Of a stretch of 64,000 nucleotides of DNA, positions 31,409-34,274 are shown piece by piece; the first letter of the stretch is position 1; every line of letters begins with the position of its first letter. A model generated the notes under the pieces. That model saw only the letters and a list, made by a program, of their open reading frames with translations. It was not told the origin of the DNA and ran no database searches. The stretch is from Microbacterium sp. H1-D42 (GTDB lineage Bacteria; Actinomycetota; Actinomycetes; Actinomycetales; Microbacteriaceae): positions 3,596,001 to 3,660,000 of the forward strand of contig NZ_CP093342.1 in NCBI RefSeq assembly GCF_022637555.1. Reading direction: 5' to 3'. The position numbers and the translations under genes are program-made.

Positions 31409-32068
31409 GTGAAGTACACCTGCATTCTCTGGGACGTCGACGGCACCATCGCGGACGCGTCAGCGGGCATCCTGCCCCGGCTGCGCCAGGTGTTCGCCTC
31501 GTACGGACTCGCTGAACCCGACGCCGACATCCTGTCCCAGTGGATCGGACCGCCGATGCTGGAGTCGTTCCAGAAGTTCGCGGGGATGGACAGGGAGCAG
31601 GCACAGGAGGCGGTGGCCAGGTACCGCGCACTGGCAGCGGCAGACGGCTATGCGGCCTCCGTCGACCTGTATCCGGGCGTCGAGGACGTGCTGCGCGCCG
31701 TGCACGCAGCCGACATCCCGCAGGCGACAGCCAGCACAAAGCCCGAGAACCAGGTGCAGGCGATCCTCGACCACTACGAGCTCACACCGCTGTTCACGGC
31801 CGTCTCCGGCGCCCGCGTCGGCGAGGTAGGCAACGACGACGGCAAGGCGTTCGTCATCGGGCAGGCACTTGAACGCCTCAGCGCGGCCGGCGTCGATGTG
31901 TCACGCCCGGTGCTGATCGGCGATCGTCACCACGACATCGACGGAGCAGCTGACCACGGAATCCCGGTGATCTTCTCGGATTGGGGTTTCGGAAGCGTCG
32001 AAGAGGCCGAGGGTGCACTCATCCGGGTCTCGGACGCACAGGAACTCAGGCGGGCACTGCTCGACTGA
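31409..32068 (+). CDS. HAD-superfamily phosphatase (phosphoglycolate phosphatase-like)
   Basis: The 219-residue protein has HAD motif I 'LWDVDGTIADASAG' (residues 6-19; Asp8 nucleophile, Asp10 acid), a helical C1-type cap, motif II 'QATASTKPENQ' and motif IV 'VLIGDRHHDIDGAADHGIP'. It resembles Gph/YjjG-type phosphatases. GTG start with GGGGGA upstream. It follows nucS by 19 bases and is probably co-transcribed with it. Substrate unknown. Confidence 0.85.
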   Translation: MKYTCILWDVDGTIADASAGILPRLRQVFASYGLAEPDADILSQWIGPPMLESFQKFAGMDREQAQEAVARYRALAAADGYAASVDLYPGVEDVLRAVHAADIPQATASTKPENQVQAILDHYELTPLFTAVSGARVGEVGNDDGKAFVIGQALERLSAAGVDVSRPVLIGDRHHDIDGAADHGIPVIFSDWGFGSVEEAEGALIRVSDAQELRRALLD

Positions 32069-32074
32069 TAGCGG

Positions 32075-32107
32075 GGTACTGTACCGTGGCCTAGGCGTGC
32101 CATGGCA
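32075..32107. repeat. Three adjacent short palindromes upstream of the ParR-like gene
   Basis: GGTAC-T-GTACC (32075-32085), GCCTAGGC (32089-32096) and TGCCATGGCA (32098-32107) follow each other within 33 bases, directly upstream of the ParR-like gene. In plasmid par loci this is where the centromere-like repeats and operator lie. The palindromes are not copies of one another, so this is only a candidate binding region. Confidence 0.4.
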
Positions 32108-32140
32108 TGTCACGCACGATGAGGAAGTGAAGGAGCACCC

Positions 32141-32590
32141 GTGGCCGAGCAGTCATCCACCCGAAAGGTGCAGATCACTGTCCCCACGGCCGACACCAGC
32201 GTGATCGAGTGGCTTGCCCAGCAGCACTCCGCCTCTGAGTCGGTGCGCCGCCTGATTCGCGAGTCCGTCGCCCGCGAAGGATTCGTCGATGTCGCGAACC
32301 GGCCGGTGCGGCCGCCGGCGCAGCCCGTCTACGTCGCCGAGGCGCTGCCGTTCGAGGCGGATCCCGTCATCGAAGCGGACGCGCACATCGAAGCGGACGC
32401 GCACGTCGAAGCGGACGCGCACGTCGAAGCGGAACCGCAGGCCAAGGCGGCACCTCGGGCAAAGTCGGCACCTCGGGCCAAGGCGGAAGCCGCCGACGCT
32501 GACGTCGACGAAGCTCCCGTGAAGAGGTCCCGTGCGCGAACCGAGAGCGCGAGCGCCTCGGCGACGATCGACGATCTTCTCGGTCTGTGA
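32141..32590 (+). CDS. ParR-like ribbon-helix-helix protein with a disordered tail
   Basis: The 149-residue protein opens with 'KVQITVPTADTSVIEWLAQQ' and 'RRLIRESVAREGFVD' (residues 8-50). This pattern of one beta strand and two helices resembles ribbon-helix-helix adaptors paired with plasmid actin-like proteins. A Pro/Ala/Glu-rich region follows, with three 18-base tandem repeats giving E-A-D-A-H-(I/V) units. A basic patch ('KRSRARTE') and a short hydrophobic C-terminus, 'ATIDDLLGL', close the protein. By analogy to ParR, the N-terminus would bind DNA and the C-terminus would contact the actin-like protein encoded 86 bases downstream. AAGGAG precedes the GTG start. Function is inferred from pairing and layout. 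Confidence 0.65.
   Translation: MAEQSSTRKVQITVPTADTSVIEWLAQQHSASESVRRLIRESVAREGFVDVANRPVRPPAQPVYVAEALPFEADPVIEADAHIEADAHVEADAHVEAEPQAKAAPRAKSAPRAKAEAADADVDEAPVKRSRARTESASASATIDDLLGL
32372..32425 (+). repeat. Three 18-bp tandem repeats inside the ParR-like gene
   Basis: The unit GAAGCGGACGCGCAC(A/G)TC occurs three times in a row with a truncated fourth copy. It keeps the frame (six codons) and can vary the linker length between the DNA-binding and C-terminal parts. Confidence 0.8.
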
Positions 32591-32675
32591 CCGGTTCTGC
32601 GCTGATCCACCATTGATTTCCCTCCCCCCGTGATCCCCCCCCATTGAACCGAAGACTCGGCACGAAAGGCTCCCC

Positions 32676-33998
32676 ATGAGTTCGGACATCATCCATCTGA
32701 CCGGCGGCATCGACGTCGGAAACGGCTACGTCAAGGGCATGATCCTCAACACCGACACGAATGTGCGGGATCGGATCGACCTGCCCAGTGCGATCGTGGC
32801 CACCCCCAGGCAGTCACCGAAGGTGCCACTGGAGGATGCCGAGGCTGCACAGGCCATGAACGACTCCGAAGAGGACTTCTACAACCGCCTCGACGCGTCG
32901 CTCTCGTCGCCGCTGGTCTCCGACAGCGACCGCCGCATCTTCGGGCGCTCGGCGCTCAGCGTGCGCGGCTCGGTGTTCAGCGAGTTCGAGGTGCACGACG
33001 GCCACGCCAGCAAGGCCGACCAGCAGCTGAGCAAGATCCTGGTGCTCGGTGTCTTCGCTGCGAAGGCGCTGCGTGACTACGTGCGCACACACGAGGCGCT
33101 TCCCGATCACGAGCTGCGCGTCAAGGTGCGCGCCGGCCTGGCCCTGCCGATCAGCGAGTTCGTCGCCCGCCGCTACGGGTACGCGGGGGAGTTCCTCGGA
33201 TCCAAGGGCTCTGCAGTGCACCTGGTGACGATCAAGAACTTCAACACCCCGGTCAGCGTCCGCCTCGAGTTCGATGACGTTCAGGTCGTCGCCGAGGGCG
33301 CCTCGGCCCAGTACGCGATCTCCGACAAGGGCGAGCCGCTCGCCGATGCCCTGCTGACCGACCTGCGCTCGCGTGAGAAGGACGTCCTGCCCGGTGTGAC
33401 CGGCGCTGACCTCGTGGCTGCGCAGAACACCATCGGCATCGACATCGGCGAAGGCACGGTGAACTTCCCGGTGTTCACCAACGGCCGGTTCAACGCCGAG
33501 GCCGCTTCCACACTCGACATGGGCTACGGCACGATCCTCGAGAACGCCCTCGACCGTCAGGACGAGGCCGACCTGCGCTTCACCAGCCGCAAGCAGCTGG
33601 CAGACTTCCTGCAGTCGACCCCGTCGGTGCTGCAGCGCAACCGCCACCAGCGCGCCGCGCGCCTGGTCGAGCCCGACGTGAAGCACCTCGTCGAGCAGAT
33701 CCGCCGGTCGTTCAACGAGACGCTCAGCCAGTCCGGTGAGTCCACCGAGGTCGTCTACGTGTACGGCGGAGGGTCCGGTCCCATCAAGGACGAGCTCTAC
33801 CCCGAGCTGATCAGCGCCGCAGGCGACGTGCCCGTGCTGTACCTGGATGCCCGGTACTCGCGACACCTCAACCGTGAGGGCCTGTTCCTCGCCGCACGCG
33901 CGGCAGAAGAGGCCGAGCAGGCAGCGCGCGCCGCGGTCGAGAGCGCGTCCGACGGAAGCCGTCGCGCCAACCGCCGCGAGACGAAGGCATCTGCCTGA
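32676..33998 (+). CDS. ParM/StbA-like actin-family ATPase
   Basis: The 440-residue protein is an intact actin-fold ATPase. It shows phosphate-1 'GGIDVGNGYVKGM' (Asp13), phosphate-2 'IGIDIGEGTVNFPVF' (Asp256) and an adenosine motif 'YVYGGGSGPIKDELYPEL' near residue 355. The closest known families are plasmid ParM/StbA and other actin-like proteins that push or pull DNA by filament formation. It is not MreB: the mreC/mreD context is absent and the N-terminus differs. It is preceded by a ParR-like gene, giving a two-gene cassette among ordinary chromosomal genes. AAAGG lies before the ATG. The C-terminal 35 residues are charged and probably disordered. The cellular role is unknown. Confidence 0.8.
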   Translation: MSSDIIHLTGGIDVGNGYVKGMILNTDTNVRDRIDLPSAIVATPRQSPKVPLEDAEAAQAMNDSEEDFYNRLDASLSSPLVSDSDRRIFGRSALSVRGSVFSEFEVHDGHASKADQQLSKILVLGVFAAKALRDYVRTHEALPDHELRVKVRAGLALPISEFVARRYGYAGEFLGSKGSAVHLVTIKNFNTPVSVRLEFDDVQVVAEGASAQYAISDKGEPLADALLTDLRSREKDVLPGVTGADLVAAQNTIGIDIGEGTVNFPVFTNGRFNAEAASTLDMGYGTILENALDRQDEADLRFTSRKQLADFLQSTPSVLQRNRHQRAARLVEPDVKHLVEQIRRSFNETLSQSGESTEVVYVYGGGSGPIKDELYPELISAAGDVPVLYLDARYSRHLNREGLFLAARAAEEAEQAARAAVESASDGSRRANRRETKASA

Positions 33999-34017
33999 TC
34001 CGTCGTCCGGACATAGA

Positions 34018-34058
34018 AGAACCCCGCCGGCGCTGCGATCGCAGTCCGGCGGGGTTCT
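34018..34058. terminator. Bidirectional terminator between the actin-like and cold-shock genes
   Basis: AGAACCCCGCCGG (34018-34030) pairs perfectly with 34046-34058. The enclosed loop itself contains the palindrome CTGCGATCGCAG. TCTTT follows on the plus strand. The element lies between two convergent genes. Confidence 0.8.
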
Positions 34059-34067
34059 CTTTCCGCC

Positions 34068-34274
34068 TCAGAGAGGGCGGATGTTCTCAGCCTGCAGGCC
34101 CTTGGGGCCCTGCGCCACATCGAACTCGACGCGCTGGTTCTCGTCGAGCGAGCGGTAGCCGCTGGAGGTAATGGCGGAGTAGTGCGCGAAAACGTCGGCG
34201 CCACCGTCGTCAGGGGAGATGAAGCCGAAGCCCTTCTCCGAGTTGAACCACTTGACTGTGCCCTGGGTACTCAT
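34068..34274 (-). CDS. Cold-shock protein, CspA family
   Basis: The 68-residue OB-fold RNA chaperone carries RNP1 '[11 protein letters not shown]' and RNP2-like 'VFAHYSAI'. The N-terminus, '[15 protein letters not shown]', is diagnostic. It binds single-stranded nucleic acid and relieves RNA structure. No strong Shine-Dalgarno precedes the ATG. Confidence 0.95.

Follow-up and report, generated by a model that had tools for sequence, protein, structure and literature searches.

The window analysed here, a stretch of 64,000 nucleotides, carries an adjacent pair of genes for a ParR-like adaptor and a ParM-type actin-like ATPase, and the evidence speaks more for a pair domesticated after the loss of its centromere than for plasmid-type partition that is still active. 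In the explanation that we prefer, on a judgement that is close to evenly balanced, a ParMR-type pair that probably stems from a mobile element lost its centromere and was then domesticated in Microbacterium, perhaps for a cytoskeletal task, in parallel to FcmBC. The carrier contig is single and chromosome-sized (3.66 Mb, with dnaA and parB), which agrees with the ParR-ParM layout on a chromosome described in an earlier note on this DNA. Both ORFs run in the same direction, with intergenic gaps of 72 bp (HAD-adaptor), 85 bp (adaptor-ParM) and 69 bp, and the pair is flanked by a HAD gene on one side and a cold-shock gene (csp) on the other. Pfam recognised both nucS and HAD, which had been named as neighbours, and the cold-shock neighbour, which is conserved in relatives, is named from our own reading of its sequence. 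The region singled out in that note starts at 32075 and takes in the upstream region besides the adaptor gene. The features discussed below are collected in Table 1.

Table 1. Position of the cassette and of the features within and around it (numbering of the window).
Feature	Position	Strand	Remarks
-10-like hexamer TACTGT	32077..32082	+	putative; in the conserved stretch between HAD and adaptor
Candidate single autoregulatory operator GGCGTG...GTCACGC	32094..32115	+	putative; partly conserved GGCGTG...GTCG block
ParR-like adaptor gene	32141..32590	+	GTG start, 149 aa; RHH-like ~1-58, variable repeat-rich linker, C-terminal tag
Presumed DNA-reading strand, adaptor residues 9-15 KVQITVP	32165..32185	+	residue 11 Gln
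Linker-coding repeats	32352..32441	+	four 36-nt copies at 18-bp steps
C-terminal tag ATIDDLLGL, candidate filament-binding tip	32561..32587	+	conservation
ParM-type actin-like ATPase	32676..33998	+	ATG start, 440 aa
13-bp perfect inverted repeat	34018..34058	.	between the convergent ParM and cold-shock genes; possible shared terminator

The assignment of the second gene to an actin-fold ATPase with its nucleotide motifs was borne out by several lines of evidence. The protein matched MreB-like_C (PF21522) at 34.2 bits, above the Pfam cut-off of 27.8, and PHROG 691, annotated as 'partition protein' (3.6e-16); its ALP_N match fell under the Pfam cut-off and no NCBIfam model matched it. Across 46 aligned ParM homologues the columns G11, D13-Y18, D256, G258-T261 and Y361-G366 are invariant, and the predicted fold resembles those of plasmid ParMs, of the chromosomal Dh-cParM1 (8x1i) and of the cyanobacterial CorM (9rmi). 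Its fold and motifs predict that it polymerises with ATP. Purifying selection acts on ParM, with dN/dS values of 0.118-0.181 between our copy and nine full-length relatives, all of which keep open frames, and of 0.12-0.16 for the examined carriers at the HAD|csp site. The row for the adaptor of L046, a gene that is present at its locus, was left out of the rate comparison.

The evidence on the adaptor is more mixed at its start than at its end. An RHH-like N-terminus had been proposed, and the sequence pattern together with two fitting helices in the AF2 model speaks for it, but that model is weak (mean pLDDT 60.1; helices 19-28, 31-46 and 139-146, no strand assigned) and neither Pfam nor a PDB sequence search recognised an RHH match; we therefore use 'RHH' as a label for a sequence pattern. 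This region is well conserved among the aligned adaptors. The repeat linker was found as described, and its sequence differs between species. The C-terminal tag proved to be conserved, as IDD[LI]LGL in 46 of the 47 adaptor matches (the last seven residues being IDDLLGL in 39, IDDILGL in 7 and INDILGL in 1), with I143, D145, L147, G148 and L149 invariant in 33/33 aligned adaptors. Such a near-invariant tip is as expected for a filament-binding tag, for which it is a candidate. We call these 47 matches the Microbacterium set, since the 17 that bear an organism name are all Microbacterium; a second set, named after Streptomyces, also includes Kitasatospora, Promicromonospora and Brevibacterium, and 106/120 of its adaptors (best 120 of 209 matches) end in IDEIMASTRR.

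The two sets differ in the presumed DNA-reading strand. Residue 11, which by analogy with RHH structures presumably faces DNA, is Gln in 45, Glu in 1, Pro in 1 and Arg in none of the 47 Microbacterium-set matches, and Arg in 107/107 alignable Streptomyces-set rows (13/120 gapped; best 120 of 209), although each set was gathered by similarity to one query, which favours uniformity inside it. Arg is likewise found at 9/9 other non-Microbacterium loci, which overlap the Streptomyces set (L070 equals P0168 at 100% and L078 is probably P0283). A second motif, the AT-hook-like RGRP, occurs in 119/120 Streptomyces-set adaptors (best 120 of 209), at 4/9 other loci and in 0/47 of the Microbacterium set. 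Arg at residue 11 is not universal, because in a Lactobacillus plasmid adaptor (L073) we read Thr at this position, and the strand residues are themselves conserved in the Microbacterium set (K9 40/47, Q11 45/47, T13 33/47). Since Q11 is conserved and the Lactobacillus adaptor has Thr, the change may mean an altered specificity rather than a loss of DNA reading.

The earlier note had presented the pair as a segregation cassette, and an active one would be expected to sit beside a parC-like array. We measured period-11 self-similarity against shuffles over the 400 bp that precede the adaptor at 20 loci (11 Microbacterium and 9 other), lag 11 having been fixed after a scan of all lags gave p < 0.05 at L070 and L071 only; all p values of the repeat tests are raw, per test. 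Once the period was fixed four further loci passed, giving p <= 0.022 in 6/9 non-Microbacterium loci (Streptomyces, Rhodococcus and Gordonia plasmids, a viral contig, Brevibacterium L078 and G247), with failures at G293 (0.419), G987 (0.092) and Arthrobacter L066 (0.579). Among the Microbacterium loci no lag-11 array was detected in the 400 bp upstream (0/11, lowest p 0.263), over 800 bp upstream (lowest p 0.124) or over 600 bp downstream (0/10, L048 left out, lowest p 0.088). Outside the genus 5/9 loci stayed below 0.05 in the 800-bp version, L072 (0.058) and L066 (0.072) lying just above, and L070 was positive downstream too (p 0.016). In a separate word test, the upstream region of L066 held AGACCA 7 times where 0.2 occurrences were expected (p 0.003), the sole value below 0.05 among the 20 loci, and no word reached p < 0.13 in any Microbacterium locus. 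By one or other test 7/9 non-Microbacterium loci thus show iterated upstream repeats, L050 and L079 failing both, and the comparison with Microbacterium gives a Fisher value of 0.002 that counts related loci as independent.

Signals at neighbouring lags were scattered over both groups. Lag 12 gave p 0.006 in the window, where the signal falls within the coding sequence of HAD, and 0.016-0.032 at three further Microbacterium loci, signals that we read as probable coding period; it also gave 0.016-0.038 in L070, L072 and L074, and lag 10 gave 0.046 in Microbacterium L042 and 0.048 in L072. Counts of 8-mer pairs did not separate the groups in a useful way, with z reaching 3.0 in M. indicum, 4.0 in Brevibacterium L078 and, for inverted pairs, 4.2 in the Rhodococcus plasmid. 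An active segregation cassette of the plasmid type accordingly found no backing, no parC-like array having been detected upstream in 11/11 or downstream in 10/10 Microbacterium loci by scans that were local to the loci and that a diverged, non-periodic or distant centromere could escape. At the Arthrobacter efr-133 locus (L066), some 480-680 bp before ParM begins, a second short RHH-like ORF seemingly lies just 5' of the adaptor by our own reading, with GACCA/TGGTC repeats ahead of it.

Instead of an array, the DNA before the adaptor offers candidates for regulation. Ten Microbacterium upstream regions could be aligned, with a mean column identity of 47%, and nine of them share a TGTA-type core, M. 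stercoris being the one that differs; a sigma-70 scan found no consensus promoter, and conservation is the argument for the -10-like hexamer. Recurrence of the operator-like block as an array in the window was rejected, its consensus giving 2 matches at 3 mismatches against 2.26 expected, which is chance level, and our own site was not among them. Because no repeat array was detected and the 72-bp gap, like the other two gaps, has little room for one beside a promoter, 32041-32140 is more likely a putative autoregulatory region than a plasmid-type centromere. The same stretch bears on the idea of a changed system that still binds DNA, in which an adaptor of new specificity would let the pair position chromosomal DNA or would only repress its own genes. 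The conserved K9, Q11 and T13 and the partly conserved promoter-proximal block suit this idea, but that block forms no array in the window and self-repression alone would not explain why ParM and the C-terminal tag are conserved, and we regard it as rather unlikely.

Both genes, adjacent, are present in the same 8/198 Microbacterium-genus genomes sampled, the remaining 190 being without a ParM match at the thresholds used, and since the same genomes carry both genes side by side the co-occurrence exceeds chance. That the two are conserved together, as had been suggested, was thus upheld by a joint search for ParM and adaptor. ParM recurs in 14/14 compared neighbourhoods and the adaptor in 13, the adaptor of L050 having been located afterwards; the remaining clusters with wide sharing consist of frames that overlap either the cassette or the flanks of the HAD site, and cluster 17 is present in four neighbourhoods at varying distances. 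Wider samples, with our own genome counted, gave hits in 3/199 genomes of the family, 3/297 of the order, 1/394 of the class and 1/396 of the phylum, where the order, class and phylum searches scored at most 4 or 5 candidates per genome and may be undercounts. A large protein database gave 1097 ParM matches; the 120 listed include Streptomyces, Arthrobacter, Kribbella and Amycolatopsis, some of them encoded by contigs whose size (4-11 Mb) marks them as chromosomal. Homologues are not confined to plasmids or integrated elements.

The pair occupies more than one chromosomal site; M. arabinogalactanolyticum JCM 9171 (L062) is one of its carriers. Between HAD and cold-shock genes it is found in the window, L042, L043, L044, L045 and L067, and at L048 the contig end cuts ParM while HAD and nucS lie on the other side. 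Empty versions of this site, with HAD and csp as direct neighbours, occur in G004, G001 and G014. Two further genomes without the pair, G007 and G012, have some 3.4-3.5 kb of other DNA between HAD and csp (L054:9039-12443, L055:3703-7215), because of which this gap could be a place where insertions vary. M. mangrovi, M. indicum, M. stercoris and strain G2-8 carry the pair with neither HAD nor csp nearby. By our own reading of the flanking proteins, the M. indicum pair adjoins an SRAP-type protein and an M18-type peptidase and that of M. mangrovi lies near purH; the M. stercoris pair (L065) sits between menB-like and menE-like genes, likely a menaquinone cluster. The HAD regions of M. indicum and M. 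stercoris have no pair between HAD and csp, and in that of M. mangrovi csp was not found within the 10 kb taken.

In a tree of 37 rows all 13 Microbacterium ParMs form one clade (97/100), within which the six HAD-site carriers and ARD32 form a clade of seven (99/95), and the nearest row outside the Microbacterium clade is Arthrobacter efr-133 (94/92). There is only a moderate correlation between ParM and NucS distances (Spearman 0.52 for 36 pairs), and M. mangrovi and M. stercoris are 73% identical in NucS and 90% in ParM, which makes movement or exchange of the pair within the genus, across sites, likely. Reading the flanking proteins by eye revealed no mobile genes, and a look for att sites gave nothing firm: the one tRNA in the window lies 23.5 kb from the pair, and repeats within 31900-34100 were weak or chance-like, the linker repeats and the 13-bp inverted repeat excepted. 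A terminator scan made no call on that inverted repeat. Capture and domestication had both been offered as origins; a single clade for the site, purifying selection and the lack of visible flanking mobile genes support a domesticated pair, and a freshly captured plasmid locus is less supported. That the locus is a captured plasmid or mobile-element remnant, passive and heading to loss, would suit its patchy distribution over several chromosomal sites of the genus and the transposon genes beside its Streptomyces plasmid relative. We nevertheless hold it to be very improbable in view of the open frames in nine relatives, the low ParM dN/dS, the near-invariant adaptor tag and the 89-95% identity of the HAD-site carriers' ParMs to our own copy.

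ParM matched 80 plasmid records, the best at 70% on a 640-kb plasmid of Streptomyces sp. NBC_01454 (L070), followed by Rhodococcus and Gordonia plasmids at 43-46%; for the adaptor only one plasmid record matched (60% over 38%). The neighbours of the L070 pair (L070:1-6305) are TnsA-like, integrase, ATP-binding and TniQ genes, and in view of these neighbours the pair may travel as Tn7-like transposon cargo. The adaptor cluster P0168, 100% identical to that of L070, has a longest contig of 9.1 Mb. Arthrobacter L066 and Brevibacterium L078 share two further small genes 3' of ParM, one with MAAPVNYTT, and the two of L066 are absent from the shared clusters of the Microbacterium neighbourhoods; in its mobile form the module may comprise more than the pair. 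A prophage or phage origin was rejected, with no match among 50,697 phage records and one distant relative (44%) among viral contigs scanned by two peptide patterns.

The presence of related pairs on actinobacterial plasmids raises the thought of an anti-plasmid or incompatibility device, which would titrate the ParM or bind the centromeres of incoming actinobacterial ParMR plasmids. Patchy distribution and several insertion sites, both usual for defence-like genes, are in line with it. However, the adaptor is without the residue and the motif common to its relatives and may not read their centromeres, and a single plasmid record matches it, which leaves this device improbable.

The cellular setting was considered through ParB, MreB and the distance to the origin. 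ParB was found in 12/12 Microbacteriaceae genomes searched, and the pair is therefore no substitute for it. In each of 12 genomes the top PF06723 (MreB) match lay in a frame of 607-688 aa, and the two checked by Pfam were Hsp70 (512 and 510 bits versus 67 for MreB); no MreB was recognised in the 12 genomes by this profile search, and the protein is probably absent. Weaker secondary matches to the MreB profile lie in frames of 568-703 aa (G293:C1:1787984-1788310, G129:C31:113745-114509 and G000:C1:2728977-2729225).

In three genomes the locus is close to an origin marker, at 58 kb from dnaA in our own if the contig is circular, 58 kb from dnaA in G184 and 57 kb from parB in G107. This closeness and the well-conserved RHH-like region would suit a chromosome partition helper, whose adaptor binds one or more sites near oriC and whose ParM filaments push sister origins apart beside ParB. 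Even where the cassette is missing, though, the HAD|csp neighbourhood lies near the origin, the HAD gene of the pairless G004 and G007 lying ~45 and ~34 kb from dnaA, and the pair is away from HAD in the draft assemblies of M. mangrovi, M. indicum, M. stercoris and G2-8. With no repeat array detected at the loci, ParB in every genome searched and most of the genus without a ParM match, such a helper seems unlikely.

Under domestication after centromere loss, a ParMR pair that probably came from a mobile element would have lost its centromere and been taken over by Microbacterium for a new task. ParM would form filaments with ATP, and the adaptor, to judge from the conservation of its IDD[LI]LGL tip, would cap or bundle their ends through it. 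With the repeats absent and the strand Arg and RGRP changed, the RHH-like region would no longer read the old iterated centromere; the adaptor may now repress only its own promoter, or bind chromosomal DNA, protein or membrane. By analogy with FcmBC, the most likely role of the pair would then be cytoskeletal or in positioning, in a cell without a recognised MreB. Patchy carriage, at 8/198 genus genomes, counts against this explanation, and so do the conserved K9, Q11 and T13, which fit an adaptor that reads DNA with another specificity. Moreover, the change at the centromere and that of the Arg each amount to the event of one clade.

A bolder version, which we put forward tentatively and consider doubtful, is that Microbacterium independently turned a segregation actin into a DNA-free cytoskeleton, its centromere gone, its strand changed and its AT-hook absent with the filament tag kept. 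If true, it would place Microbacterium next to the cyanobacteria as a group in which a partition system has become a cytoskeleton, and would mean that partition actins make this change repeatedly, by steps readable in sequence (array lost, DNA-contact residue changed, filament tag kept). Actin filaments would be available to an actinobacterium without a recognised MreB, and what chromosomal ParMs do would become testable, with the plasmid, Arthrobacter and Brevibacterium relatives that have arrays as natural controls.

Set beside known systems, the pair resembles plasmid ParMRC (R1, pSK41, B. thuringiensis ParM, Alp7A) in its actin fold, two-gene layout and conserved adaptor C-terminus, and differs from it in having no detected parC-like repeats, a chromosome-sized contig and no plasmid genes recognised beside it. 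AlpA/AlpC, on prophage CGP3 of C. glutamicum, is likewise an actinobacterial pair in which the adaptor gene accompanies the actin-like gene, but it has 24 alpS repeats in the promoter region (PMC4446434), whereas the Microbacterium pair has no alpS-like repeats and no phage-record match. To CorM/CorR of Anabaena there is a likeness in fold, through CorM (PDB 9rmi, by its title), and our literature search found no paper on that pair. The same search, which left most subscription papers outside, found none joining Microbacterium, ParM and actin-like. Closer still are the cParMR systems of Desulfitobacterium and C. botulinum, chromosomal ParM and ParR-like pairs kept in related species, here in few genomes of the genus. 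According to the 2025 paper, Cb-cParMR of Clostridium botulinum has a genomic parC bound by its ParR, unlike the Microbacterium locus, where no local repeat array was detected, and the role of chromosomal cParMs is left open (PMC12270681); 'Microbacterium' and 'Streptomyces' have 0 occurrences in its main text. FcmBC of Nostoc is a partition pair turned shape system with membrane-associated filaments, a shown shape role, orthologues in all heterocyst formers and fcmC downstream of fcmB (PMC12645912). By comparison, the Microbacterium adaptor lies upstream of its actin gene, and the pair is carried by a small minority of its genus and known from sequence alone. Chromosomal ParMs are already known, and the Microbacterium pair is a further variant of them.
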